DNA of 64,000 nt from Candidatus Gastranaerophilales bacterium (GTDB lineage Bacteria; Cyanobacteriota; Vampirovibrionia; Gastranaerophilales; Gastranaerophilaceae). Below are positions 8,381 through 25,116 of this stretch, in pieces. The notes below the pieces were generated by a model that was not told the DNA's origin, did not search any database, and was given only the letters and a program-made list of their open reading frames with translations. The position numbers and the translations under genes were made by a program. Position 1 is the first letter of the stretch; every line of letters starts with the position of its first letter. The stretch is from positions 91,958-155,957 of the forward strand of contig JAFYOU010000002.1 of assembly GCA_017560095.1 (NCBI GenBank), in the 5' to 3' direction.

Positions 8381-9841
8381 ATGACACAAGCATTATTTAC
8401 GTCTATGACAGGCTTAAATGCAGGAACAGAGCAACTAACTGTTGTATCAGATAACGTTGCCAATATGAACACAACTGCATACAAAACAAGCCGTGTTGAT
8501 TTTCAAGATATTTGGTATGCAACCAAAACAACAGGCACAAACTCAAGCAGAGTTTCAGGCGGAACAAACCCATACCAAATTGGCGTTGGTGTACAATGCG
8601 CTTCTATTTCAAAAGATTTTGGCGCTGCAAGCACAAATACAACAGGCAGAGCTTCTGATATGGCAATTACTGGCAATGGCTGGTTTACTGTTCAAAATTC
8701 AGATGGAAAAGTTTTATTAACAAGAGACGGTACTTTTTCTTTAGATGAAAATGGATTTTTATGTACTGCAGATGGTTCTAAAGTCTTAGGAATGGATGAA
8801 ATGGAGTCATTAACAAATTCAACAACTCCAATCAAAATGCCTACTTCAATTAAAGTTGTAACAGAAGGTACTCCAAAAGCGAAATTTGACGCAATGAAAG
8901 TTTCTGAACTAAACTCTCTTGGAAGTTCAAATTCCGGCATTAGAGACGGCGAATTTGAAGTAGTTGTAAAAGTTAAAAATGCAGATGACACAGTAAGCAC
9001 CATTAATTTAAAAGTTAATGTTGGCGATCAAGTAAATGATGGAAGCGTTGCTGCAATGGTTGCTGCAATGAATGCCTCAACAACAACTGTTACAAATGAA
9101 GATGGCTCCACAACAACTTATAACGTAAGTGATTATTTAACTGTTGCATCAGAAGATGGTGTAATTTCTTTCACTCCTAAAGATAATGTTGAATCTTTAG
9201 AATTTAAATCTATCGAAGAAAAAGATGGAGGAACAAATTTTGTTTCTATTGCAAAATTAGCCAATATGCCATTAGTTGGTGGGAAATACACAACTAATCC
9301 GCTAAATTTATCTGCAACCATAGGACAAGTTGATGATATTACTTCTGAATATACACAAAATTATGATAGTTTTTCAGTTGGCAAAGATGGTTTAGTTACC
9401 GTTACTTATGGCGATGGCTCAATTTTAACCGTTAAAGCAAACGAAGATGGTTCAACTTATTTTTCATACCAAACATCAGGTGGTGTAATTATCAATGATG
9501 ATATCCAAAATTCTGGCAACGCCTCATTATATGTTGATCCTAATGTATTGGTTAAAGCAAATATGCAACTTCAAATGGCTAAAGTTTTAAATGACGGAGG
9601 CTTAGTTGCAGAAGGTAACAACCAGTATTCTATTGGCGTTAACTGTGGAGATGTAATCTATACTGCTGCAAATATCAATGGCGTTGGTGCAGTTGTGACA
9701 GGAGCTTTGGAAGCATCAAATGTTGACCTTGCACAACAGTTTTCAAATATGATTTTAGCTCAAAGACTTGTTCAAGCTAATTCACAAGTTTTCTCAGGCG
9801 CTAACCAATTACTAGAAACATTGGTTTACTTGGGTCAATAA
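8381..9841 (+). CDS. flgE: Flagellar hook protein FlgE
   Basis: Structural subunit of the hook, exported by the flagellar type III system. At 486 residues it has the expected conserved ends: an N-terminal D0 helix (TSMTGLNAGTEQLTVVSDNV with the NVAN motif), the DMAITGNGWFTV block near residue 95, and the C-terminal D0 helix (EASNVDLAQQFSNMILAQR). The middle is variable and rich in Thr/Ser/Asp, as is usual. GGAAAGG lies upstream of the ATG. A terminator follows, closing the operon. Confidence 0.95.
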   Translation: MTQALFTSMTGLNAGTEQLTVVSDNVANMNTTAYKTSRVDFQDIWYATKTTGTNSSRVSGGTNPYQIGVGVQCASISKDFGAASTNTTGRASDMAITGNGWFTVQNSDGKVLLTRDGTFSLDENGFLCTADGSKVLGMDEMESLTNSTTPIKMPTSIKVVTEGTPKAKFDAMKVSELNSLGSSNSGIRDGEFEVVVKVKNADDTVSTINLKVNVGDQVNDGSVAAMVAAMNASTTTVTNEDGSTTTYNVSDYLTVASEDGVISFTPKDNVESLEFKSIEEKDGGTNFVSIAKLANMPLVGGKYTTNPLNLSATIGQVDDITSEYTQNYDSFSVGKDGLVTVTYGDGSILTVKANEDGSTYFSYQTSGGVIINDDIQNSGNASLYVDPNVLVKANMQLQMAKVLNDGGLVAEGNNQYSIGVNCGDVIYTAANINGVGAVVTGALEASNVDLAQQFSNMILAQRLVQANSQVFSGANQLLETLVYLGQ

Positions 9842-9874
9842 TTTTAAATTTCTCTTTATTGTCTTTATTAAAAA

Positions 9875-9905
9875 GGGTACTCATTTGAGTACCCGATTTT
9901 TTATT
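9875..9905 (+). terminator. Intrinsic terminator after flgE
   Basis: GGGTACTC and GAGTACCC pair around a short ATTT loop, followed by a T-rich tract. It closes the flagellar operon. The convergent 525-residue gene ends just beyond, so the hairpin may serve both strands. Confidence 0.85.
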
Positions 9906-9911
9906 ATTATA

Positions 9912-11489
9912 CTATATAGTTTGTTCTGCTAAGCCATAACCATAGGCTACTTGTAAAACTTGCATTACATCATCATAACCATATTCATTAATTACCGTTT
10001 GAATGTTTTGATTTTCTTGCAATGCTGTGAATATTTTTTTACCATCACCCCATAAATTACCTGCAACATCTTTAAGCTTAATATTTTTTATATTTTTAAA
10101 TGCACTTGCAGCTTCATCTGGTTTTAAGGTTGTTTTTAAATATTCATATGTCTTCGTTCCTTTTACATTATTTGTTAATTTACCAAAAGATGTCTTAGAT
10201 TTTGTCGCATCAAGAGCTTTCGTTGCATCATCAAGAGCTTTCGTTGCATCATCAAATGCCATTTGCTCTGCCTTTGTATAGTTGCCTTCATAACCGCCTT
10301 TTTTAACTTCTCTTGTTGCTTTATTTAAAGCTTTTTTTGCTGTATTAAAAGCTTTTTTTGCTGTATTAAAATCTTTTTTTGCTGTATTAAAATCTTTTTT
10401 TACTGTTTTGTAATTTTGTCCAGCTTGAGCCATATCATCTAATCTCGCTATTACATCTGCAGCATCATCAGACACCATTGTATCCCTGATTTCAAATTCT
10501 TTAATTATACGCATTTCGTCATCAGTTAACGCCCCAGTTTTATCAATTTTATTATATTTTCTTTGTGCATTTTTATATTCTACAACTTCTTTTGCAGTTG
10601 TATAGGTTTTTGAAGTTTTTGCCCACAATGCCTTACCATTATTCTTGGTTGAAGACATTGCGTCTTTTCCAAAAGCTTTTGCAGTTTCTGTTAATTTTTT
10701 AGTACCTGTTAAGCTATCATCCACATTAGACAATGCGCTTGCATTTTTCATTTTTCCTGTGCTTTTGATAACTTCTGCTGCTTTAGCTGCATCGGTCACA
10801 TCATCCAATGCCGCTGCAACTTCATCTACATTATCTAAACCTTTTAACATTCCTGTTGTAATATCATCTCCATTTTTTAAGGCCTTTGACGCAACCTTTG
10901 CAACATCATCAATTGCCGCAGTAGATGCCCCTTTCATTGCACCAACAGAAGCTTTTGCACCAAGTGCACAACCAACAACGGTTGATGTGCCTTCACCGAT
11001 ATTTTCCCAAGCTGCTTTAGCTTCAGCATCCGTCGTTGCGTTTGCTTGAGCTTTAAAACCTTTAATTACCTGACTTCCGCCTGCAATAGCCCCAATTCCA
11101 CATGCTACAGCACCTACTGCAGGGAATGCAATACATGCAGCCGCAATACCAACAGATAATAATGTTTTACCTAAAGAGAATTTACCTTCTTTATTTGTAA
11201 ACATACCTTTAATGCCATTAATTGCGCCTTTAATAATACCTTCGCCAGCATTTAATAAAGCTGAACCAATGCCAATTTTACCATCATTTTGTCCATCAGT
11301 ACATGTGTTTTTGCCCAATCCGGCATCAGAAATGCCACTTGCATAAACTCCATTAGCAGATGCACTTGAAGATGCACTTGAAGACGAGCTTGAAGATGCA
11401 GTGGTATGTACCCTCGTTGGATTGCCATACTTTGCCTGATACCCATATAAAAAGTCATCATGGGCAATAGCATAATTTCCGTAAGTCAT
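9912..11489 (-). CDS. Unknown Ala/Lys-rich protein with glycine-rich hydrophobic segment and tandem heptad repeats
   Basis: I do not recognise a family for this 525-residue protein. Visible order: an N-terminal MTYGNYAIAHDDFLYGYQAK segment; a Ser/Ala run (residues about 30-48); a glycine/alanine-rich hydrophobic stretch near residues 108-145 (SVGIAAACIAFPAVGAVACG) that could insert in a membrane; alternating Ala-rich helices; and a tandem heptad block near residues 360-388 (units such as FNTAKKD). There is no Sec signal peptide. The start is fixed by AGGGGG before the ATG. The hydrophobic glycine-rich segment plus coiled coil recalls secreted pore-forming or effector proteins, but that is speculation. 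It is transcribed towards flgE. Confidence 0.75.
   Translation of the reverse strand: MTYGNYAIAHDDFLYGYQAKYGNPTRVHTTASSSSSSSASSSASANGVYASGISDAGLGKNTCTDGQNDGKIGIGSALLNAGEGIIKGAINGIKGMFTNKEGKFSLGKTLLSVGIAAACIAFPAVGAVACGIGAIAGGSQVIKGFKAQANATTDAEAKAAWENIGEGTSTVVGCALGAKASVGAMKGASTAAIDDVAKVASKALKNGDDITTGMLKGLDNVDEVAAALDDVTDAAKAAEVIKSTGKMKNASALSNVDDSLTGTKKLTETAKAFGKDAMSSTKNNGKALWAKTSKTYTTAKEVVEYKNAQRKYNKIDKTGALTDDEMRIIKEFEIRDTMVSDDAADVIARLDDMAQAGQNYKTVKKDFNTAKKDFNTAKKAFNTAKKALNKATREVKKGGYEGNYTKAEQMAFDDATKALDDATKALDATKSKTSFGKLTNNVKGTKTYEYLKTTLKPDEAASAFKNIKNIKLKDVAGNLWGDGKKIFTALQENQNIQTVINEYGYDDVMQVLQVAYGYGLAEQTI
10210..10251 (-). repeat. Two exact 21-bp tandem repeats inside the 525-residue gene
   Basis: The 21-base unit at 10210-10230 is repeated exactly at 10231-10251 and encodes a seven-residue unit (ATKALDD). 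The unit length is three turns of codons equal to one coiled-coil heptad. Confidence 0.85.
10327..10410 (-). repeat. Four 21-bp tandem repeats inside the 525-residue gene
   Basis: Units at 10327, 10348, 10369 and 10390 are nearly identical over 21 bases; the first two are exact copies. Each encodes one heptad of the FNTAKK(D/A) type, so copy number change would lengthen the coiled coil without a frameshift. Confidence 0.85.
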
Positions 11490-15682: not shown

Positions 15683-15758
15683 GCCCCCATCGTCTAGAGG
15701 CCTAGGACAACACCCTTTCACGGTGTAGACAGGGATTCGAATTCCCTTGGGGGTACCA
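15683..15758 (+). tRNA. tRNA-Glu (anticodon TTC)
   Basis: The acceptor stem GCCCCCA pairs with TGGGGGT, and CCA is encoded at 15756-15758. The anticodon arm is ACACC-CTTTCAC-GGTGT with TTC in the loop. The T arm, AGGGATTCGAATTCCCT, carries the TTCGAAT loop. The last nine bases (from 15750) belong to the 25-bp core repeated at 25072, so this gene is the attachment site of the neighbouring element. It is intact in the integrated state. Confidence 0.95.
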
Positions 15759-17232
15759 TATAAAATATAGGAGCCATTAAGGCTCCTTTTTTAATGTCAA
15801 ACCAAGGGTTTGAACCAGTTCGAAAACCAGTTTCTTCATATATTAAACCGCTTGGAAAAATTAGCTTTTGTAATTTTTGTTTTGTTTCTAAATCATTGTC
15901 TAACCATAAGTTTTCAAGATTTTCTAACGAGTTCAAAACATAATCTAAACAAGAATTAAAATTAGCTTTTGGCGTTTTAAGTTCATTAAGTGTTATACTA
16001 ATTTCATTTTCTTCTTTTTTAATTGAATCAAGTTTGGATTGATATATAGTATCATCAATTTTACCTTGAATGTATAAATCAACTAGTTTATCTTTTGTTG
16101 ATTTTAATTCAGTTAATTTTTTACTTAAATCATTGTGATTTTTATTGAATTCTTTACTCATAGAGCTATATTGTTCTTTTAAAGACTTTTTAACTGTTTC
16201 AATACACTCTTTATTTGGTTTTACTGTGCTTAAAAACTCTATAAACATCTTTTCAAGCGTATTCTTAGGAATTCTTACTTTTGTTTTACAGCTAGAATTA
16301 TAACAATGATAGTAAGCATATTTTTTATTTTTACTACCAGTTGATTTGCTTGCAGTTAGTGGAGTGCCACAAAACGGGCACAACACAAACTGTCTTAATG
16401 GAAATTCTGCACTATTTATTCGATTAGTTAAAGCTTGAAATCTATTACCACCAAGCATAGATTGAACTTTTGCAAATAATTCATCTGATACTATTGCTTC
16501 AAATTTTCCTTTAACCACTTCTTTATGCAATGAAGGGCAATACATTTTTCCGCAATATACCAAGTTTTTAAGCATTGAATATAAACTAACAGTTGGTATT
16601 TCATAGTTATAATGCTTTTTAATGTATTTATTGATACAAGAGTGTTTATATAAGCCACTAGCATATAATTCAAAGATTTTTCTAACCATAGGCGCTTTTT
16701 CTTCATCTATTAGTAATTCACCATCTATTAATTTATAGCCCAATGGTGCACGCCATAGCCATTTACCTTCTATTAAAGCTTGTTTCATGCCTGCTATTAC
16801 ACGCTCTGATTTTTGGTCATTTTCAAATTGTGAAAAAGCTTGTAACATATTTCTTGTTAGTTTACCAACTGCATCATTTTGGTTATTTTCTGTAGCTGAT
16901 AGAATATCTATATCTAACTTGCCTAAAAAAGCACTTAGTGCATAATGGTCATTCATATTTCTAGATAATCTATCTAGCTTCCATACAATAATATAATCTA
17001 TATTTTTCTTGTTTTGTGCACAGTATTCCAACATATTTTTTAACTCTGTTCTATCAACTGTTTTTGCACTTTCACCTTTTTCTACAAAAATCTTTGAAAC
17101 ACTACATCCTTGTTTAAGCGCAAATTCTTTACATTCTTCCTCTTGTCTTGCAAGACTAAACCCGCATTCTGCTTGTTCAACTGATGATACACGTGTATAA
17201 ATTACAGCGTTTTTAATTGTTTTATTATTCAT
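15718..17232 (-). CDS. Large serine recombinase (element integrase); C-terminus read from the host tRNA strand
   Basis: Catalyses site-specific integration and excision. The resolvase domain (residues 1-150) carries YTRVSS with the nucleophile serine and VWKLDRLSRN. Next come a recombinase domain (LGYKLIDGELLIDEEKAPMV), a zinc ribbon (CPFCGTPL, then CYNSSCKTK) and a coiled coil near residues 370-440. ATG at 17232, with AAAGGAAAG upstream. In this chromosome the frame crosses the attachment core and ends PREFESLSTP, which is simply antisense tRNA-Glu, and stops at 15718. If the two core copies are joined, the frame continues instead into SLNTFELIF...KEIEK. The upstream 38-residue gene is coupled to it. 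Confidence 0.93.
   Translation of the reverse strand: MNNKTIKNAVIYTRVSSVEQAECGFSLARQEEECKEFALKQGCSVSKIFVEKGESAKTVDRTELKNMLEYCAQNKKNIDYIIVWKLDRLSRNMNDHYALSAFLGKLDIDILSATENNQNDAVGKLTRNMLQAFSQFENDQKSERVIAGMKQALIEGKWLWRAPLGYKLIDGELLIDEEKAPMVRKIFELYASGLYKHSCINKYIKKHYNYEIPTVSLYSMLKNLVYCGKMYCPSLHKEVVKGKFEAIVSDELFAKVQSMLGGNRFQALTNRINSAEFPLRQFVLCPFCGTPLTASKSTGSKNKKYAYYHCYNSSCKTKVRIPKNTLEKMFIEFLSTVKPNKECIETVKKSLKEQYSSMSKEFNKNHNDLSKKLTELKSTKDKLVDLYIQGKIDDTIYQSKLDSIKKEENEISITLNELKTPKANFNSCLDYVLNSLENLENLWLDNDLETKQKLQKLIFPSGLIYEETGFRTGSNPWFDIKKGALMAPIFYMVPPREFESLSTP
15750..15774 (+). repeat. attL: 25-bp core repeat at the 3' end of tRNA-Glu
   Basis: Exact match to 25072-25096. The core begins GGGGTACCATATAAAA and ends ATAGGAGC. 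It covers the last nine tRNA bases (including CCA), the spacer, and the left arm of the tRNA terminator. Confidence 0.9.
15769..15792 (+). terminator. tRNA-Glu terminator, right arm supplied by the element
   Basis: AGGAGCC pairs with GGCTCCT around ATTAA, followed by a T run. The left arm lies mostly in the att core and the right arm comes from the element. The same DNA, read on the minus strand, encodes codons of the recombinase C-terminus. Confidence 0.85.
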
Positions 17233-17234
17233 AA

Positions 17235-17351
17235 TTACTTTCCTTTCATTAAATACGTCTCTATTAACAATGCTGTGATACCCTTTAATAAATCATCTTG
17301 TATATCGGTATCATCTATGTACAGTTTATTTATAAACTTGTTGTTAGACAT
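17235..17351 (-). CDS. Small 38-residue protein translationally coupled to the recombinase
   Basis: Reads MSNNKFINKLYIDDTDIQ and ends ...LIETYLMKGK. Its TAA lies two bases before the recombinase ATG, and its last codons contain the recombinase ribosome binding site (AAAGGAAAG). It has its own GGCGGG upstream of the ATG. The tight spacing suggests translational coupling. The function is unknown; a recombination directionality factor or leader peptide is possible but unproven. Confidence 0.65.
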   Translation of the reverse strand: MSNNKFINKLYIDDTDIQDDLLKGITALLIETYLMKGK

Positions 17352-17370
17352 TTTACCCGCCTTTCATTTT

Positions 17371-17392
17371 GGGTACTATAATTCATGTACCC
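17371..17392. promoter_or_regulatory. Inverted repeat GGGTAC-N10-GTACCC overlapping a -10, likely operator
   Basis: Perfect 6-bp arms around ATTATA (TATAAT on the plus strand, TATAGT on the minus strand), about 20 bases upstream of the 38-residue gene. The position is that of an autoregulatory operator for the recombinase operon. The binding protein is not identified. Confidence 0.5.
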
Positions 17393-17594
17393 GATATTAC
17401 ATACACTTGTCAAGGATTTTTATTTATATGAAGTAGTACACTACAGATGTATAAATATTTTTTTAAATCCTTTTTACACCATCCTTTATACTGATTAAAG
17501 ATTTTGCTTTATACTGCAAAGGTATATTACAAATTTTTTACCAACAAATTAAAGCGCAAATTTGCACCATAAATCAGTATAACTATTTAGTATA
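17393..17594. other. Intergenic region with short inverted repeats, no gene seen
   Basis: No open frame is supported here. It holds TTGACA on the minus strand (17407-17412), the near-palindrome GTAGTACACTAC, GCAAATTTGC, and oppositely oriented TATACTGAT and ATCAGTATA copies near 17510 and 17573. These could be recombinase-accessory or regulator sites. Confidence 0.35.
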
Positions 17595-18530
17595 CTAATA
17601 ATAGGCATCCCCATTTGGTTTTAGACTCTTTTTTAAAGCTCTTTGATTAATATATTTATTTTCGCCTTTAATTCTCTTGTATAGTGCATTTTCTTTTTCT
17701 ATTTCTCTAATAAAAATTAGGCAAGAATAAGCACATATTCTATCTTTTTCATTAAAGCTTGATAATGGCTCATTATATCCATTGTTTAAGCTTTCAATGA
17801 ACTCTTTGTAATAAAAATAACGATTTTTGATTTGATATAGTCTTGTTTTGCCTAAGTATTTTTTAAATTTATTCTTAACTTTGCTTATCGATGAATTATT
17901 ATAAAATTCTTTTAAAACCTCAAAAATAACATCATCTCTATTAGATAAAGTATTTCTTTTGCATTTTTGAAGTCTTACATTCCTCCTAAAATCTTCTAAT
18001 ACGTCATAAACAGCAAGAAGATATTTGTAACTAGTTAATAAATCCAATTCATCATGGTATTTTTCTTCAACTGAACACAAATTTAAAATTGAATTATTAT
18101 CTTTAACTTTATCTACGTGATGTATTTCAAGGTTTAAAATATTTGAATATAAACAAGCGCAAAGTCTATGAATAGTGCAATAACAATTATATTTTGAATA
18201 GCCTGTTTCAAGTTTTTGGCATAAACCTTGTTTTAAAAGCAAGCTATAAATATTTTCTGGTAAATTATTCTTGATTGAATTAATTTGAAATTTTATATAA
18301 TCAGAATCTAATTCACATCTTTTTAAATCAACAAAATATGGATTTTTGCAATTTTCAACAATTAATTTATATTCATCATTTGGTGTTGAAAATTTTTTAA
18401 CAACTGCAAAATAATAATCTTTAATGTAATTCGCCCCAAGAATTACATATTCTTCTTTTGGGTCTAAATATTTTTCAATGATTTTTTCTTTAATAAGAAA
18501 ATGTTCGTATAGCAACTTTGTTTGATTCAT
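17595..18530 (-). CDS. HNH_3-like endonuclease-domain protein
   Basis: A 311-residue protein. Residues about 118-160 fit the HNH_3 pattern seen in phage and homing endonucleases: IHRLCACLYSN, then LEIHHVDKVKDNNSILNL, that is H-R-L...(V/I)HH(V/I)D...NN...NL. The His pair and Asn residues expected for a His-Me-finger metal site are present. The rest is not recognised; the C-terminal part has a basic helical segment (KKYLGKTRLYQIKNRYFYYK) that could bind nucleic acid. The start at 18530 is preferred for its strong AAGGAAAGGA; a longer form from 18563-18566 is possible because TATGAT sits directly upstream. It follows the 512-residue gene by about 75 bases. Confidence 0.6.
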   Translation of the reverse strand: MNQTKLLYEHFLIKEKIIEKYLDPKEEYVILGANYIKDYYFAVVKKFSTPNDEYKLIVENCKNPYFVDLKRCELDSDYIKFQINSIKNNLPENIYSLLLKQGLCQKLETGYSKYNCYCTIHRLCACLYSNILNLEIHHVDKVKDNNSILNLCSVEEKYHDELDLLTSYKYLLAVYDVLEDFRRNVRLQKCKRNTLSNRDDVIFEVLKEFYNNSSISKVKNKFKKYLGKTRLYQIKNRYFYYKEFIESLNNGYNEPLSSFNEKDRICAYSCLIFIREIEKENALYKRIKGENKYINQRALKKSLKPNGDAYY

Positions 18531-18604
18531 TTGGATGTCCTTTCCTTTTCCTTTGAACATCATCATTGAATCATATTGTGTTTTTACGAAGAAAAAATCC
18601 TTTG

Positions 18605-20143
18605 CTAATTTTTTGCTCGGGATTTTTTTGTTAAACTTTCAAGTTTCTCCATATTTTCGATTAACATATTATATGCACAAGAGTTGTTAAGCGTTAGAAC
18701 CATATTAATGCTTTGAGTGGTTTCTTTAAGGAAATAGTTTATTTGTTCATATTTTTCTAAACGTTCTATTTCTTGTACGTGTTTTTTAAAATCTACACCT
18801 TTAAATTTATCGTGCTTTAATTCATATTCAATATTTGAAATTTTATTTAAAATTGTTTTGTTGCTTATATTTTTTAATTCATACAACTTTTCTTTTAAAC
18901 AGTTTAAAGCATATTCTTGTTTAGATGTTGAATTAATATAGTTGCACAATGTTTCAATATTTATTAATACATCTTTTTCTTTTAATGTTTCATATATGGA
19001 CAAAAATTTTTCTTTTAAAAGTATTTTGAATTTATCAAAAATATCATCAAAATTTATTTTATTGCAATAATTTTTGTTTTTATAGGTGCAAAATTTGCAG
19101 TCTTTATTGCATTCAAACAAATTATCAAGAGTTGAAGTATAAAATTTATAATTTTCATCATTTTTCAATATTAATCTGCCATAATTCCATTCAGCATATT
19201 CATAACAATATTTATTCTCAATTTGTGCGGAAAAAAACTTTAAAAATTGATAAATTGAAATTACATCATTATAAATGTTTCTATATCTCAGCCAATCTTG
19301 GTTGCTTTGTTCCTTATCATCATTTATTGGTTTGTTTTCTTGCTTTTTCTTATACTTATCTTTTAATCCAAAAAGTCTTTCATTCCAAAAAGTAAGCTCG
19401 CATTTTTCTATATAATCTTTGGTTAAGTTTTTAAGCTCGTATATCATTTTAAAATAATTGGCATTTAGCATTAATAACATCCAAAGCCAAAACCAATAAT
19501 TTTTTGATAAAGTTTCACAATTGCTCCAAGCATTAGAAAGCATTGGGAAAAAATCAATCAATTTTAAAATAGAATAATTGCAACAATATTCTAAATCACC
19601 TTCTATTTTAAGTGAATAATTTAAACCGAAAATTTTCTTAATATCTATGTTTATCGGCAAAATGGTTTCTTGTGCAAGATTTTCAATGCTTTTTATATTG
19701 TTTGAAATATCAATAATTGCGTATAATAGGTTTGACAAAGAAGGAGTTTTAAGAAGAATTTCTTTAAAATATTTGTATGTAATTGGTTTGCTATAATCAA
19801 TAAGGGAATAATTATAGATTTTTTTCCAGTCTTTTTGTGTATAATGCTCGGTTTCTGGTTTATTTTTTATATAAGTTAAAATTTTGCGTATATTTTTTAT
19901 GTATTCTTTAATACATCCTTCTACATTAAAATCGCAAGCATCCATATAAAAATCATATAAAAAATCTTCATCTATAATATCTTCGATAAAAATTAATTCT
20001 TCATCTGAGTTTTCAAATTCTTCAAACACCTCATCTGGCATGGGTTGAAGTGTGAAAGTGTAAAGCTCTTTTATTGGGTTTAATTTAGGCTCCTTATTTT
20101 TTTCTGTATTTTTTGAATTTTTGTGTGGTGCTTTTTCTGACAT
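18605..20143 (-). CDS. Unknown element protein with a four-cysteine cluster
   Basis: A 512-residue protein of no recognised family. It is Lys/Asn/Ile-rich and mostly helical. Near residues 210-235 is an aromatic, hydrophobic stretch (NYWFWLWMLLMLNANYF). Near residues 343-359 is CNKDCKFCTYKNKNYC, a C-x3-C-x2-C-x7-C cluster that probably binds zinc. The ATG at 20143 has GCGAGG upstream and is preferred to the TTG at 20170. A good promoter lies upstream (TTCAAG-N17-TATAAT). The HNH-like gene follows on the same strand, so the two may form a unit. Confidence 0.65.
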   Translation of the reverse strand: MSEKAPHKNSKNTEKNKEPKLNPIKELYTFTLQPMPDEVFEEFENSDEELIFIEDIIDEDFLYDFYMDACDFNVEGCIKEYIKNIRKILTYIKNKPETEHYTQKDWKKIYNYSLIDYSKPITYKYFKEILLKTPSLSNLLYAIIDISNNIKSIENLAQETILPINIDIKKIFGLNYSLKIEGDLEYCCNYSILKLIDFFPMLSNAWSNCETLSKNYWFWLWMLLMLNANYFKMIYELKNLTKDYIEKCELTFWNERLFGLKDKYKKKQENKPINDDKEQSNQDWLRYRNIYNDVISIYQFLKFFSAQIENKYCYEYAEWNYGRLILKNDENYKFYTSTLDNLFECNKDCKFCTYKNKNYCNKINFDDIFDKFKILLKEKFLSIYETLKEKDVLINIETLCNYINSTSKQEYALNCLKEKLYELKNISNKTILNKISNIEYELKHDKFKGVDFKKHVQEIERLEKYEQINYFLKETTQSINMVLTLNNSCAYNMLIENMEKLESLTKKSRAKN

Positions 20144-20187
20144 CTTAAAACCTCGCCAGCTACCCCTCAAACCTTGTTAATGTAATA

Positions 20188-20216
20188 ATTATACCCTAAA
20201 TTATGTATAACTTGAA
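20188..20216 (-). promoter_or_regulatory. Promoter of the 512-residue element gene
   Basis: On the minus strand, TTCAAG (20211-20216) and TATAAT (20188-20193) are separated by 17 bases. The start codon lies 45 bases downstream of the -10. Confidence 0.65.
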
Positions 20217-20296
20217 TCTAATTATCAAATAGGCAATAAAAATATATTTTCTGTTTTTATACTAATATAAATATAAAATAAGTTTAAGGAAACAAC

Positions 20297-21367
20297 ATGT
20301 CTATTCCAAGTATATCTCCAGCAAATTTAGCCGTTATTGAAAAACAAAAAAATCAACAAAGTGCAAATGTTGCTGTTCAAAAGACCGAAACAACAGGTAA
20401 CAATAAAAAAATTATGCTTGCATTAGCAGGACTTGCTACTATTGGCTTGGCAACAATTGGAATATATGCATTAACAAAAAATCATAAAAGAGTCACTGAA
20501 GCAGGGCAAGATTTCTCAAGAAGAGGTGAAGATTTGCTTCAAGGTTTAACTGGTAAACCAAGTAAAAGTACTGGTGCCATTGAAGATGCAAAAAAGTTAA
20601 GTAATAAATTAGCCGAACTTCAACAATTAAAAACAAGTTCAACAATAGAAACAGCAGATGGAATAATTACATTTGAAAAAGAAGTTCCTACAATTAAAAC
20701 AAGTGTTGCGGATGATGTTGCAAATTGGAAAAAAATAAGGGAAACTGCGCCAAAGTATGACGATAAAACGCCAATTAATACAGATTTTGACGAGTTTATC
20801 ATTGTACCGCATCAATATACTGATGATACTGAAATTTTAATACGTGGCAAAGATTATACTTGTGATTTTTCCGTGTATAAAGTAGAAGATGGAAAAATAT
20901 CAAAACTTGAAAATGCTAGATTGAGCGAATATACACGTGAAAAGGATTCTTCATGTTTGTTTGAAATTCAACCAGATAAAAGGTGTCTTCAGACTGGAAT
21001 TTTTGAAGATGGTAGAAAGTATGTTTCTTGCGCATACCAACTTGGCGAAACAGATGAAGCTGGTAGAATAATGTATGAAACAATTATGCTTGTGTCAAAA
21101 GGCAAAGAATTTACACAATCTCAAAAAGATTTAATTAAAGCTTTTGAGTGTTCAAAAGGCAAAAGATTTAAAAACGATATTCCACCTATGATATTTGGAA
21201 AATATGTTCCATCGGGTTGCAAATCTTTGCCTTACAATCAGGCGATATTTTTAGAAAATAGAAATGCTCTTTTATCGGCAATCTACAGTTGGTCTAAAAA
21301 CGTTGGCGAATTTGATATTGAAAAATATTTACAAACTCAAGGTGATATTTTTAGAATAGGTCGTTAA
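20297..21367 (+). CDS. Unknown single-pass membrane protein carried on the element
   Basis: A 356-residue protein. Residues 1-34 are polar (MSIPSISPANLAVIEKQ...), residues about 35-57 form one membrane segment (IMLALAGLATIGLATIGIYAL), and the remainder is a soluble domain without recognised motifs. The soluble part contains four to five spaced cysteines. AAGGAAAC precedes the ATG. No Sec-type signal peptide is present, so a type II or III membrane anchor is likely. It is divergent from the 512-residue gene. Confidence 0.65.
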   Translation: MSIPSISPANLAVIEKQKNQQSANVAVQKTETTGNNKKIMLALAGLATIGLATIGIYALTKNHKRVTEAGQDFSRRGEDLLQGLTGKPSKSTGAIEDAKKLSNKLAELQQLKTSSTIETADGIITFEKEVPTIKTSVADDVANWKKIRETAPKYDDKTPINTDFDEFIIVPHQYTDDTEILIRGKDYTCDFSVYKVEDGKISKLENARLSEYTREKDSSCLFEIQPDKRCLQTGIFEDGRKYVSCAYQLGETDEAGRIMYETIMLVSKGKEFTQSQKDLIKAFECSKGKRFKNDIPPMIFGKYVPSGCKSLPYNQAIFLENRNALLSAIYSWSKNVGEFDIEKYLQTQGDIFRIGR

Positions 21368-21437
21368 TTGTTAACTTGCAACTATTTATAATTTATCCTA
21401 TAAAACAAGTTGATAACTTGTTAATTTAATAATATAT

Positions 21438-21443
21438 TATAAT
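21438..21443 (+). promoter_or_regulatory. -10 box of the 51-residue gene, predicted leaderless
   Basis: TATAAT is followed by six bases (GAAATT) and then GTG at 21450, the same geometry as cysE. No ribosome binding site fits. Confidence 0.55.
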
Positions 21444-21449
21444 GAAATT

Positions 21450-21605
21450 GTGTTTTATTTATTTTTCAATAATAAAAAATCTTTAAAAAACGAAATACAA
21501 AATCTTGAAGATTTTGGCATTGATGAGATTGAAAATATTAACAATAAAGAATATTTAAAAGAAAAATTATCAACCTATGAATACTTTTCAGATGACGAAA
21601 TTTAA
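21450..21605 (+). CDS. Small 51-residue acidic protein with a GTG start
   Basis: Reads from GTG: VFYLFFNNKKSLKNEIQNLE and ends ...EYFSDDEI. The body is amphipathic and acidic with no recognised domain. The start is supported only by the TATAAT-N6-GTG promoter geometry. It is the single open frame filling the gap before the repeat protein. Function unknown. Confidence 0.5.
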   Translation: MFYLFFNNKKSLKNEIQNLEDFGIDEIENINNKEYLKEKLSTYEYFSDDEI

Positions 21606-21641
21606 TCTGAACCTTTTATTTTAAAATTCGTTTTATTTAAT

Positions 21642-22058
21642 ATGAAAAAATTATTAGCTTCATTTTTAACTTTGCTATTTTTATCTGCTTCAGTACTAGC
21701 TGGAACAATAAATTCTTACGATAAATATGGTTCTAAAAGTGGTTCATATAAAACATCTGGTTCAACAACTACCAAATATAATAAATATGGTCAAAAAGAA
21801 TCAACTTATAAAAAATCTGGAAATAAAACAACTGAATATAATAAATACGGCTCAAAAACTGCAACATACAAGAAATCTGGCTCAACTACAACAAAATATG
21901 ATTCACAAGGCAGAAAACAAACAACCTATAAAACATTAGGTTCTACAACAAATGTTTATGATAAATATGGCAGAAAAACAGGCTATTACAAGAAAACATC
22001 GAATGGTAAAGTCGTAGAATACGATAAATACGGACGTAAGGTCGGTACATATAAATAA
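21642..22058 (+). CDS. Secreted tandem-repeat protein (20-residue YDKYG units)
   Basis: A 138-residue protein. Residues 1-20 are a signal peptide (MKKLLASFLTLLFLSASVLA). From residue 24 it consists of about five and a half repeats of 20 residues with the pattern Y(D/N)KYG.K...YK.SG.TT, giving alternating Tyr, Lys and Thr. The pattern resembles short beta-hairpin repeats such as MORN or YD types, but no family is claimed. The repeat units are visible at DNA level as 60-bp near-repeats. It is exported, probably to the surface or periplasm, and is an odd passenger for a defence-type element. Confidence 0.75.
   Translation: MKKLLASFLTLLFLSASVLAGTINSYDKYGSKSGSYKTSGSTTTKYNKYGQKESTYKKSGNKTTEYNKYGSKTATYKKSGSTTTKYDSQGRKQTTYKTLGSTTNVYDKYGRKTGYYKKTSNGKVVEYDKYGRKVGTYK
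21709..22056 (+). repeat. Tandem 60-bp repeats encoding the 20-residue units
   Basis: Degenerate 60-bp units, each beginning TA(C/T)GATAAATA(T/C)GG or a close variant and containing AAAACAACT-like codons. They correspond to the repeats of the secreted protein. Confidence 0.7.
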
Positions 22059-22240
22059 TTTGCATTAAAATTTTAAACAGGTAAATTGCTAAAATTCAAA
22101 TATAATGTGTGTTTAAACGCATTTTAAAATGTTTGAAAATGCTAAAAATACCAAAAATTTGAATTAAAAAACATTCTAAACTTTATATCGCAAATCTAAC
22201 AAACCTTAAAATTGATTCTAGTGGGCTTAAATTCAATGTT

Positions 22241-23608
22241 TTATTTATCGCTTTCGTCGTTATTTTTTGAAAAATTACCAATTTTTACAAGTTGTTTTGC
22301 AAACTTAATTACATCTTTTGGAATCAGTATATTGTCGTTCTTTTTCTGTTTTTCTTTGATTCTAAAAAAGTCTTTTGCAAGTTCTAATTTTACTCTCCTT
22401 GCACTTATATCTTCGCTTTGGTGTTTTGCTTCTCTTTTTGTTTCTATATAATCAATATTTTTTAAATATGGGTCAATACTTGCAATTTTTATTTCAAAAT
22501 CCCTAAGCTCCATTTGATAATTATGTCTTTTTTTAGCCTCCATCGCTAGGTACAAAGCGGGTGCATATAATGTAAAAGCTACAGGGATTCTTTCAAGAAT
22601 GTTTATCCAAGTAACGGTATGCTCCATTGATTCTTGCCAAATGCAGCTTGCCATCAATAATGACATTACAAACATAATTAAAAAAGCACTCACATACAAA
22701 CACCACACTTTTTTATTTTCATCATCAGCAAGTTTTTTATAATTTCCGCAAGAAATATTCTTGCCAATTAATCCATATAATTTTTCTACTTCTTCATTTT
22801 TTTCGGTAATTTGCCTTAATATTTCATTGGCTTTATTTAAAAAATTTGTTTCAATGTTATGTATATTAAGTTTTTGATTTTTTGCTTCATTTTCCCAATA
22901 TGTAACAACTTGCTCTCTATCTTTTTCTACTTCGCTAAGTTTTTCTTTCCATTCATTTTTAATTTCATCATTTGAATCAAACCACTGTGATTTTATTTTT
23001 TCTTGATTTTCTGCAAACTTTTCATTGAAATCTGCAATTTTATTAGCAAATAGCGTATCTCTTTCAATTTGGTTTTTATTAAATTGCTCCGAAAAACCAT
23101 TTATAATTGCTTGTTGTTCTTCTATCTTGTCTTGTAATTTTTGAATCTCATTTTTGTAATCTTTTATATTTCCTTCATATGATTCCACTTTCTTTTTTAA
23201 ACGAGTAAATGATTGTTTGCTGTTGCCTACTATTGTCGCCAAAGAAGTAGATATTGTTTCTTTGTCATCAAAACAAAGTTTTGAAATAGCATTAATTATG
23301 TGTTCGATATTTGTTCTAATTTGTTGAATATATTGAGTATTATTATAAGTGCGATAATTATATAAAGCATTGTTAATGTTGGAAATGTAGGAGGCTAAGT
23401 CTTTAAAAAGCTCATTAGTAAAGAATTCTTCTTGGGTTTTTTCTATTTTATTGATTAAAGTTTGAATTACAACTTCAGCTCTATACATAATAGATGAAGT
23501 TTCAGGGTTATCTTTGTATTCTTCTAGATATCCAGAAAAAGTTAGTATATTGTCTTGTAATTTAATCAAATCTTGATTGCATTCTGACAATTGTATATTT
23601 AATTCCAT
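22241..23608 (-). CDS. Unknown coiled-coil protein with two membrane segments
   Basis: A 455-residue protein. Residues about 1-120 are helical, and residues about 125-300 form a long coiled coil (KKKVESYEGNIKDYKNEIQK and onward). Two membrane helices lie near residues 320-342 (LYVSAFLIMFVMSLLMASCI) and 360-378 (IPVAFTLYAPALYLAMEAKK), followed by a basic helical tail. No enzymatic motif is seen. The gene is divergent from the Abi_2/HEPN gene with only 164 bases between them. A coiled-coil sensor plus membrane segment is a common layout in phage-defence genes, so a defence role is inferred, not shown. Confidence 0.65.
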   Translation of the reverse strand: MELNIQLSECNQDLIKLQDNILTFSGYLEEYKDNPETSSIMYRAEVVIQTLINKIEKTQEEFFTNELFKDLASYISNINNALYNYRTYNNTQYIQQIRTNIEHIINAISKLCFDDKETISTSLATIVGNSKQSFTRLKKKVESYEGNIKDYKNEIQKLQDKIEEQQAIINGFSEQFNKNQIERDTLFANKIADFNEKFAENQEKIKSQWFDSNDEIKNEWKEKLSEVEKDREQVVTYWENEAKNQKLNIHNIETNFLNKANEILRQITEKNEEVEKLYGLIGKNISCGNYKKLADDENKKVWCLYVSAFLIMFVMSLLMASCIWQESMEHTVTWINILERIPVAFTLYAPALYLAMEAKKRHNYQMELRDFEIKIASIDPYLKNIDYIETKREAKHQSEDISARRVKLELAKDFFRIKEKQKKNDNILIPKDVIKFAKQLVKIGNFSKNNDESDK

Positions 23609-23760
23609 TTAACATATACTCCCCAACATTTTGCCTCATGATATGATATTTTTAGTCCAAAATCAAGTACTATTGCGTGATTAATTGGTAAAACAATAAA
23701 TATTTTTGAATCTGTTTGATTCATAGATTGTGAATTATACCCATGCCTAAATATTCCTGC

Positions 23761-23766
23761 TATAAT
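23761..23766 (+). promoter_or_regulatory. Extended -10 of the Abi_2 gene, predicted leaderless
   Basis: TGCTATAAT followed by TGATTT and ATG at 23773: six bases between the -10 and the start codon. No ribosome binding site is present. Confidence 0.7.
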
Positions 23767-23772
23767 TGATTT

Positions 23773-24441
23773 ATGCAAGATATAAGAATTGATAATACTG
23801 AATTAACAAGCATTTTATCACTAGCAAGATTGTCATCATATAAAAATGAGGCAGAAACTACCGATGAGTTATTGACACAGTATACGTACAATATCAAAGT
23901 TTCTGAAGCTTTTTATCCCGTATTGGCATTATTTGAAATTGTGCTCAGAAATAAAATTTGTTCGGCTATTGAAAAATTAATTAAACCAAATTGGTTAATG
24001 GCTGAGTTAGAAAAACAAACAATATTGCGTAATGAAGAATATTTAAAATTAATTGAAGCAAAAGAACATTTGATTAAAAATAATAAAAAAATAACCAATG
24101 ATAGATTAATTGCAGAAATGACTTTTGGGTTCTGGGTTTATTTATTTACAAAAGCATATAAACCACGCTTATGGGATAAAAAACATTTCTTTGAAACTGT
24201 TTTTCCAAATTATAAAACCAATAAAGAGTTGGTTAATTTAACATTATTGCAGGACGATTTAAGAACAATTTTAAGATTAAGAAATAGAATATTTCATCAT
24301 GAAATTATAACTAACGGTCGAATCACGCCAATGCAAAATTATCAAATTATTTTAAATTTAATTCATTTAATGTCGGATGATGCAGTAAAATATTTAAATC
24401 AAATATCAAGATTTGAGGCTATAATAAGTCAAAAGCCCTAG
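23773..24441 (+). CDS. Abi_2-type abortive infection protein (HEPN-like)
   Basis: A 222-residue protein matching the Abi_2 (AbiD/AbiF) family by its series of blocks: FYPVLALFEIVLRNKI near residue 57, RLIAEMTFGFWVYLF near 115, and LRLRNRIFHHE near 170. The last holds the R-x4-H motif of the HEPN RNase superfamily. Family members cause growth arrest on phage infection, in several cases through RNA cleavage. The start at 23773 is placed by the leaderless promoter. Its neighbour in the opposite direction is the coiled-coil membrane protein. It is cargo of the tRNA-Glu element. Confidence 0.85.
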   Translation: MQDIRIDNTELTSILSLARLSSYKNEAETTDELLTQYTYNIKVSEAFYPVLALFEIVLRNKICSAIEKLIKPNWLMAELEKQTILRNEEYLKLIEAKEHLIKNNKKITNDRLIAEMTFGFWVYLFTKAYKPRLWDKKHFFETVFPNYKTNKELVNLTLLQDDLRTILRLRNRIFHHEIITNGRITPMQNYQIILNLIHLMSDDAVKYLNQISRFEAIISQKP

Positions 24442-24792
24442 CGACTCTGCAATAAATGCAGGACATACATCTAGGACTATCCATTTACATGATAAACCAT
24501 TTTGTATACATTTTCAACCCTAAAGTTAACTTTTTTTGACAAAAAGTTAACAAAAAGTGAATCTTGGTTAACAAAAAGTTAAGTTTCTTTGACAAAAAGT
24601 TAAGTTTTTCAGATAAAAAGTTAACTTTTTTTCAAGTAAAATTACAAAAAACAAAGAAATAGTTGTATTTTTTTGAGATTTTATTTCCAAAACTTTCAAC
24701 TTCTTCCTTTTACAACCTACATGTCCATAATTTCAAGTACCACTATTCAAGAAACATAGGGGGTATGATAAAATTAAGAAAAAGGAGTATAT
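24442..24792. other. Gene-free stretch holding iteron-like repeats and a promoter
   Basis: The first 80 bases contain a small CTGCA-ATAAA-TGCAG hairpin. The repeat cluster follows at 24521-24631. The end holds TATGATAAAAT near 24766 and AAAGGAG at 24781-24787 for the GGARAGAGR gene. No open frame is supported. Confidence 0.6.
24521..24631 (+). repeat. Cluster of six AAAAAGTTAA-type iteron-like repeats
   Basis: Copies at about 24521 (TAAAGTTAAC), 24541 (AAAAAGTTAAC), 24552 (AAAAAGTGAAT), 24563 (CAAAAAGTTAAG), 24592 (CAAAAAGTTAAG) and 24614 (TAAAAAGTTAAC). Several are flanked by GA(C/T)A or TTTTTT, and some form the palindrome AAAGTTAACTTT. The layout, directly upstream of a small DNA-binding-like gene, resembles iterons or operators of a replication or copy-control protein. 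Confidence 0.7.
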
Positions 24793-24993
24793 ATGGCAAC
24801 AGGTGGTGCAAGAGCTGGTGCGGGTCGACATAAGACCAATAAGCCTACAACAAAAGCAACGATATACAAAGCAGATAGAAAAATCATAAACGATTATGCT
24901 CTATCGCTCGGCATTCCTGTTAATGAATTAATGCATTTGGTGTTTACTCACAAAGATTTTGAAAACTATCTAAATAAAATACAAAATATGTAA
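24793..24993 (+). CDS. Small GGARAGAGR protein, probable DNA-binding regulator of the element
   Basis: A 66-residue protein: MATGGARAGAGRHKTNKPTT, then a strand-helix-helix segment (KATIYKADRKIINDYALSLG, then ELMHLVF) that looks like a ribbon-helix-helix fold. GGxRxGAGR is a basic N-terminal motif common on plasmids and phages. AAAGGAG precedes the ATG. Six iteron-like repeats lie upstream, so it may bind them. It ends five bases from the predicted stop of the recombinase in the excised form, implying a convergent gene pair on the circle. Confidence 0.65.
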   Translation: MATGGARAGAGRHKTNKPTTKATIYKADRKIINDYALSLGIPVNELMHLVFTHKDFENYLNKIQNM

Positions 24994-25071
24994 TATATTA
25001 CTTTTCAATTTCTTTTAATAAGTCATACATCATAAAAATAAGTTCAAAAGTATTCAAACTCCTCTTAGTGT

Positions 25072-25096
25072 GGGGTACCATATAAAATATAGGAGC
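25072..25096 (+). repeat. attR: 25-bp core repeat
   Basis: Identical to 15750-15774. Here it is followed by the chromosomal right arm of the tRNA terminator and is preceded by element DNA, not by a tRNA copy. Confidence 0.9.
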
Positions 25097-25116
25097 GGTT
25101 TAACGCTCCTTTTTTA
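25091..25116 (+). terminator. Original chromosomal tRNA-Glu terminator, now stranded at attR
   Basis: AGGAGCG pairs with CGCTCCT around GTTTAA, then a T run. Its left arm is in the att core. Before integration it would have followed tRNA-Glu directly. Confidence 0.85.

Follow-up and report, generated by a model that had tools for sequence, protein, structure and literature searches.

In phage Mx8 (intP/intR), integration reportedly swaps 112 C-terminal residues of the integrase for 13, a result said to be that of Tojo et al. in 1996. The integrases of Mx8 and SSV extend across attP, the attachment site of the circular form (PMC4383910), and a 2021 review treats self-disrupting recombinases as exclusively archaeal (PMC8371274). 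A 2014 database paper knows only tyrosine integrases at tRNA and tmRNA genes (PMC4383910), although a 2011 paper had already listed rare serine integrases at tRNA genes (PMC3218068). Serine recombinases at tRNA genes include eight from actinomycete integrative and conjugative elements (AICE) of Mycobacterium, in tRNA-Leu, and that of phiRSM1, in tRNA-Ser (PMC3218068, PMC4471427). In the ssrA islands of Dehalococcoides, the reading frame of dsiB overlaps attL and its stop codon lies outside the island; McMurdie et al. (2011) suggest that dsiB is fully functional perhaps only on the circle or beside a neighbouring island (PMC3146451). The present analysis concerns an integrative element at positions 15750 to 25071 of a 64,000-nucleotide stretch of Candidatus Gastranaerophilales DNA (GenBank assembly GCA_017560095.1, contig JAFYOU010000002.1, positions 91,958 to 155,957), here called the window. 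The element carries a serine recombinase, and the reading judged rather probable is that its attP lies in the 3′ end of its own recombinase gene, and that the loss of the tail on integration alters the enzyme.

The element is a single unit of 9322 bp, measured core to core. Its 25-bp core, GGGGTACCATATAAAATATAGGAGC, is found at 15750–15774 (attL) and 25072–25096 (attR). The repeat extends no further on either side, and these are the only two exact copies in the entire assembly (2.07 Mb, 58 contigs searched). The target is a tRNA-Glu(TTC) gene at 15683–15758 on the plus strand (ARAGORN), whose final 9 nt are part of the attL core; the gene stays intact. The recombinase gene, at 17232–15718 on the minus strand, encodes 504 residues. 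It crosses the core, enters the antisense tRNA-Glu and closes with the ten residues PREFESLSTP directly after MVP, exactly as had been described in the original prediction, which was made from the letters of the stretch. The 494 codons through MVP in the core (15751–17232, minus strand) contain Resolvase, Recombinase and zinc-ribbon domains (PF00239, E 1.9e-34; PF07508, 4.9e-9; PF13408, 3.6e-8), which make the predicted enzyme a large serine recombinase (LSR). Its best integrase family is phrog_95 (1.5e-91), and the A118 integrase matches at 2.6e-14. Assignment to the CcrB or XisF equivalogs was rejected, as the scores are below the NCBIfam cut-offs (130.9 bits against 375 for XisF, and 115.4 against 900 for CcrB).

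When attL and attR are joined in silico, a frame of 518 residues results. The 494 shared residues are then followed by the native tail HTKRSLNTFELIFMMYDLLKEIEK, encoded at 24998–25072 on the minus strand with its stop at 24998–25000, and this segment is contiguous with the recombinase frame only in the circle. In the integrated form the shared codons are followed by the host-read tail at 15718–15750 (minus strand). Comparison of the two frames thus bears out the claim that the integrated gene has a different, host-encoded end. The predicted continuation past MVP to that stop also holds, while the tail has 24 residues and not the 23 first counted. The stop adjoins a convergent open reading frame (ORF) of 66 residues, GGARAGAGR, at 24793–24993 on the plus strand, as described. 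The clean fit to this ORF had been offered as proof that the long tail is native. This argument was dropped: the ORF has no family match and groups with no gene of the 9 other elements compared, so the fit is particular to one element. The tail is nevertheless native by another line of evidence, namely its conservation in relatives.

The close relatives comprise 17 loci (L040–L056) among 30 genome-contig loci, mostly from Candidatus Gastranaerophilales metagenome-assembled genomes. Places that were fetched twice are counted once (L035/L044, L036/L045, L037/L046, L038/L050, L039/L053 and L034/L040). The recombinase of L040 is 99% identical to that of the window, and those of the remaining close loci are 43–50% identical. 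Homologues that stop before the core would have contradicted the prediction, but the frame crosses the core into antisense tRNA-Glu in 16 of the 17 loci, and the other, L056, is truncated by a contig end. ARAGORN calls the tRNA in 14 of the 16 read-through loci, and L043 and L051 end too soon. The attR core, ATGGTAC(C/T)CC, is located upstream in 12 elements besides that of the window, including L101. Counted from the core ATG, the segment behind attR has exactly 26 open codons in each of the 12 relatives, and 26 or 27 in all 13 tRNA-Glu elements with attR located, the window included. This makes chance an unlikely source of the window's open frame. The tails of 11 of the 12 relatives terminate in YELRN(I/V)A, and that of L050 in YELRHIA. 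The 12 include near-copies of one element (L045, L046 and L101) and L056 with its cut integrase; the core at 188 in L047, a tRNA remnant, is excluded from the tail counts. The complete elements (n = 12, with the window and without L056) span 6.0–10.1 kb. Of 18 close tRNA-Glu loci (the 17 above and L101), 6 had no intact upstream core within the stretch examined (L040–L043, L054 and L055); the tail of L042 was later identified, as L135, behind a degraded core.

Extra tails accompany attR sites on other contigs or lie next to degraded cores (L121, L124, L125, two in L127, L128, L135 and L129). The L129 tail has 27 codons, resembles that of the window, and is in the assembly that contains L041, whose recombinase is the closest non-identical relative of the window's at 50% (assembly matched by coordinates). 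A tail profile matches the window tail at E 9e-11, although this tail is one of its training rows. The orphan tails L122 and L123 are decayed, and their premature stops are expected once selection ceases. Tail identity tracks body identity (r 0.76; Mantel 13/5000) in a matrix of 10 elements, from which L045 and L101 are omitted as near-copies of L046.

The conserved tail raises the question of whether protein or DNA is under selection. The 16 distinct 26-codon tRNA-Glu tails have an indicative pN/pS (nonsynonymous to synonymous polymorphism) of 0.444 in frame, whereas the two shifted frames give 0.934 and 1.221; 1 of 400 column shuffles was as low as the in-frame value (4 of 300 in an earlier test of 10 tails). 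The right attP half-site is the opening part of the native tail coding segment, and the proximal 8 codons inside it have a pN/pS of 0.94, with 186 of 400 shuffles as low. These first codons behave as constrained DNA and not as codons, and they hold a shifted motif resembling the tRNA T-arm, as would be expected if the tail DNA were conserved solely as an attP half-site and the peptide were irrelevant. That explanation is very unlikely, because the distal 15 codons, which are beyond the half-site, have strong codon structure: their pN/pS is 0.35, 0 of 400 shuffles was as low, and 11, 5 and 15 columns vary at first, second and third codon positions, respectively. DNA constraint at attP was accordingly discarded as the sole cause of tail conservation. 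At the level of sequence, these values show protein-level selection on the distal native tail in the tRNA-Glu relatives, and none on the codons inside the half-site. The tail is probably a C-terminal helix. The last 20 residues of 26 tails contain 5 prolines or glycines in 520, which a helix would allow, and a hydrophobic-moment test for an amphipathic helix is weak, with 7 of the 26 tails at or below 50 of 1000 shuffles.

The position of the crossover is indicated by relatives with differing cores. In L048 and L052, which have mixed cores, the attL and attR bases differ at position 8 of ATGGTACYCC and the attL base is that of the tRNA, and L045 has an attL/attR mismatch one base before ATGG. 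Strand exchange would thus take place within ATGGTAC, which corresponds to GTACCAT at 15753–15759 in the window. The antisense T-arm has the motif (C/T)(C/G/T)GAA(C/T) at offset 19 or 20 in the tRNA, and a like motif is present at offset 24 or 25 in the element. In the window the attB-side motif is TCGAAT (15735–15740, minus strand; offset 19 from the core A). The attP-side motif, TTGAAT (25052–25057, minus strand), lies inside the native tail segment at offset 24, 5 bp further out, with a second motif at offset 34. At the single half-site measured, 19 of 22 attP/attB pairs have a shift of exactly 5 bp; the pairs come from about six subfamilies and are not independent. The remaining 3 pairs are degenerate at the same offset by inspection, with one mismatch in L046 and L116 and two in L113. 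To model attB, Rutherford et al. (2013) take the attP complex and move its zinc-ribbon domains toward the crossover by 5 bp (PMC3783163), and the shift of this putative zinc-ribbon motif matches the published LSR geometry. A scan by core and 5-bp rule locates the site correctly in all 4 positive controls and, among loci of other subfamilies, proposes a single weak candidate in L084 and another in L107. The same scan found no attR in the stretch examined of L057, L082, L083, L085, L086, L088, L091, L092, L098, L100, L111 and L114, and short-word scans of L087, L093, L096, L097 and L058–L060 gave no convincing attR.

Related recombinases have other tRNA targets. Among 24 further loci (L004 and L011–L033), 16 enter an antisense tRNA and L031 enters a tmRNA, as judged from coordinates; of the seven remaining loci, L023 and L033 are at contig ends. 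The L031 recombinase (G092:C238, about 9437–11284) overlaps the tmRNA end, a dsiB-like target, and its native tail was not located. Native tails are present in one tRNA-His subfamily (L099 and L103–L105, the tail peptides of L103 and L105 being identical), in a second tRNA-His subfamily (L115, L116 and two in G230, with L081 as a further single case), at tRNA-Asn (L106, L109, L113 and L095) and at tRNA-Asp (L089, L090 and L094). Within each target set the tails resemble one another. The tRNA-Glu tail profile finds those of L103–L105, which were outside its training, at E 7e-8 to 1e-6, and its first non-tail match among 52,812 peptides is at 0.48. The frame in which the tRNA is translated differs between the two tRNA-His subfamilies. 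It is therefore likelier that losing the native tail matters than that gaining the host tail does; the host-read peptide looks arbitrary and is probably neutral.

The range of targets also bears on the possibility that integrated elements translate the tail on its own, as a small separate protein that starts at the core ATG. The core ATG is in frame in the tRNA-Glu and one tRNA-His subfamily, where it opens an ORF of 26–27 codons. However, in the tRNA-Asp and second tRNA-His subfamilies the core ATG does not share the frame of the tail, the tRNA-Asn core lacks an ATG altogether, and the host sequence upstream of attR varies among elements. An independent mini-ORF was thus rejected for these three subfamilies, and as a general account it is scarcely credible.

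Tandem arrays provide another source of the tail. In the tandem pair of G230, the first integrase continues in place into the tail of the second element, and the second continues into tRNA-His. Consecutive attR tails, or a tail remnant at attL, are seen in L113, L127, L109, L095 and L118–L119, and arrays and decay recur at such tRNA genes. A profile of the joined tRNA-Glu integrase and tail found no true one-piece protein in 384 family genomes, with at most 12 first-look candidates scored per genome, while it detected tails separate from integrases at E values down to 1e-10. The matches reaching furthest into the tail columns, in G384 (to 87) and G373 (to 95 of 101, E 5.7e-5), are tRNA-His recombinases that end in antisense tRNA. 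Searches with the joined C-terminus gave chance-level matches at best in phages (E 0.2) and none in plasmids. The viral contigs searched gave no close relative, only four matches of 25–38% over parts and one of 32% over a short piece. As predicted from these frames, it takes a circle or an array to encode the conserved C-terminus.

The favoured mechanism follows from this arrangement. The sequence shows that recombination with antisense tRNA-Glu detaches the last 24 codons of the gene and supplies the host-read tail. Since the native tail is conserved in relatives, the full-length enzyme must matter in the circle or in a tandem, where a neighbour lends the tail. The putative helix may support attP × attB recombination, and its loss at integration would weaken or redirect the enzyme. 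Integration would thus turn down its own catalyst with no separate regulator, and excision could then be served by the altered enzyme, by a tandem partner or by a separate factor. The effect of tail loss, be it quenching, a change of direction or a change of stability, we infer. Control from the C-terminus has a laboratory precedent: phiC31 and Bxb1 integrases switch direction when a recombination directionality factor (RDF) is fused to their C-terminus, and the extreme C-terminus of LI integrase is reported near the coiled coil (PMC5737554).

Stability in particular could be altered if the native tail were a degradation signal. The circle would then make a short-lived integrase, and integration would leave a stabler one, in the manner of the BPs repressor. 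The repressor gene of BPs contains attP and its viral form has an ssrA-like tag, and the BPs integrase has a C-terminal degradation signal (PMC4557955). The host tmRNA tag is ANNVVKADFAPRAIAA (ARAGORN), and 17 of the 26 tails end in A, 14 of them in IA, VA or AA. In contrast, the window tail ends in IEK and its nearest relative in NKK, three tails of the first tRNA-His subfamily end in C, K and K, and only one of four tRNA-Asn tails ends in IA. Conservation also extends well into the tail (FYELR), beyond the terminal residues. A degradation signal has genuine support and is held to be rather unlikely.

A stricter form of the favoured mechanism is that the enzyme disables itself. The tail-less form would be inactive, and excision would need full-length enzyme from a newcomer or tandem element. 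The arrays and multiple attR tails of G230, L113, L127 and L109 are consistent with this, a similar model exists for the archaeal suicidal integrases (PMC8371274), and it is among the options raised for dsiB (PMC3146451). However, almost all integrated recombinase genes listed are without internal stops. An alignment of L045 and L101, from different genera, covers 10.5 kb at 93.8% identity and begins at the first core base, before which the host sequences differ; that of L046 and L101 begins about 45 bp earlier. Genes so rarely interrupted and such a 10-kb element in two host genera argue that integrated copies move or arrived recently. Self-disabling is possible but doubtful, and its probability overlaps with that of the favoured mechanism. 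A wider proposal is likewise tentative: throughout the clade, control without a regulator would come from a crossover that swaps a conserved module and leaves a product enzyme either competent for or barred from the reverse reaction, and arrays that lend tails would make this an exchangeable directionality module.

Two genes in related elements are candidate regulators. A protein of 290 residues (L044:3461–4330) has relatives in 9 of 10 elements compared and was not found in that of the window. Its L044 copy is weakly MerR-like (E 0.001 to 0.003) and is a candidate regulator or directionality factor. An ORF of 59 residues, SERIKAG, is just upstream of the recombinase (L044:4611–4787, and at the same place in L047, L048, L049 and L052). 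Its L044 copy resembles only a short inner recombinase segment (phrog_125 positions 110–153, E 0.003) and may be a mimic or regulator.

Several points weigh against control of the enzyme by loss of its tail. The MerR-like and small genes make a separate directionality factor possible in the related elements, and phiC31 integrase is reported to do without its final 21 residues (PMC5737554). The collections searched, where the relatives are mostly metagenome-assembled, yielded neither an excised circle nor an attP junction. The window tail is only 12–21% identical to the main tail group, and its nearest relative, L129, sits on a different contig from the integrase of the same assembly. The codon test omitted the window tail along with L129, the other 27-codon tail, and the decayed L122 and L123. 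Its shuffles leave shared ancestry in place, which is why its numbers are called indicative. The motif of the 5-bp test was picked after the arms had been inspected, and several arms contain a second motif that yields other shifts. Body and tail do not always travel together either: L047 and L049 are 96% identical in their bodies and 52% in their tails, a mismatch expected if elements exchange tails.

The remaining features of the element concern its target and its cargo. A hairpin with a T-run at 15769–15792 (plus strand), carried by the element 3′ of the tRNA and antisense within the recombinase gene, is a likely replacement terminator. The hairpin and T-run on the host side of attR (25091–25115, plus strand) is, from its sequence, likely the original one. 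A perfect hairpin of 7–9 bp is found 8–10 bp from the core, opposite the end of the recombinase gene, in all 16 tRNA-Glu elements examined, and its stems vary in sequence between elements yet stay complementary in all 16 (a count without shuffle control). The element-borne hairpin thus likely replaces the terminator displaced from the tRNA. No intact copy of the empty site, reconstructed from the window's flanks, turned up; the matches in 28 of 29 genus genomes were mainly to its tRNA side, and its right flank varies. Among the cargo, the gene at 23773–24441 (plus strand) is similar to the anti-phage defence PD-T4-5 (PADLOC, E 3.3e-14) and weakly to Abi_2. Its neighbour at 22241–23608 (minus strand) has weak ZorA matches (E 7e-4 or worse), and the large ORFs at 18605–20170 (minus strand) and 20297–21367 (plus strand) have no Pfam match at E 0.01.

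The prevention of serine-integrase reversal is a central question, and a practical one for genome-writing tools. In nature, the recombination product itself appears to alter the enzyme, and the present comparison suggests that integration itself changes the integrase. With a short tail of known sequence in several subfamilies, and with full-length and swapped enzymes open to direct comparison, the question raised for dsiB in 2011 becomes testable. There is also a warning: an integrase gene recovered from an integrated element can end in the wrong C-terminus, one derived from the host, and for that reason its product may appear weak in tests. The loci further add a set of predicted tRNA-targeting serine integrases that read the antisense T-arm.

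No description of conserved native tails of serine integrases was found in the literature searched, most subscription papers being outside its reach, and the available main text of a large LSR survey contains none of the terms 'C-terminus', 'C-terminal' and 'tRNA' (PMC10083194). Relative to the Mx8, SSV, dsiB and BPs precedents, the serine integrases, the several tRNA targets and the evidence of selection are new. The window element and its relatives are like dsiB in having an LSR at an RNA gene, a 3′ frame overlap of attL, and islands in series. They differ in that the dsiB end was judged divergent and its role is speculation, whereas here native tails are recovered, conserved and codon-tested, in other bacteria and at tRNA targets. 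The attP of phiRSM1 is reported between two ORFs, unlike the attP inside the integrase gene here (PMC3218068, PMC4471427). As in BPs integration-dependent immunity, attP is in a reading frame and integration alters a C-terminus, which in BPs changes the properties of the protein; in BPs, however, it is the repressor gene that is altered, a degradation tag goes with the lost tail, and the integrase has a gene of its own (PMC4557955). The extreme C-terminal peptide sets the direction of the serine integrase in LSR-RDF fusions, a candidate parallel, but these are engineered with a complete RDF (PMC5737554), whereas here a natural short tail, known from sequence alone, is lost by recombination. 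The SSV-type archaeal suicidal integrases also have the target site in the integrase gene and lose a part on integration (PMC8371274). They are tyrosine recombinases split into two inactive parts, whereas the present enzyme keeps its catalytic, Recombinase and zinc-ribbon domains and exchanges no more than its last residues. The attP of Mx8 likewise lies within the integrase coding sequence, but in a tyrosine integrase of one phage, while the present enzymes are serine integrases of several subfamilies at tRNA genes. With attP in the integrase frame and an altered C-terminus, yet no tyrosine recombinase, the window element works like Mx8 and SSV and is not a member of their families.

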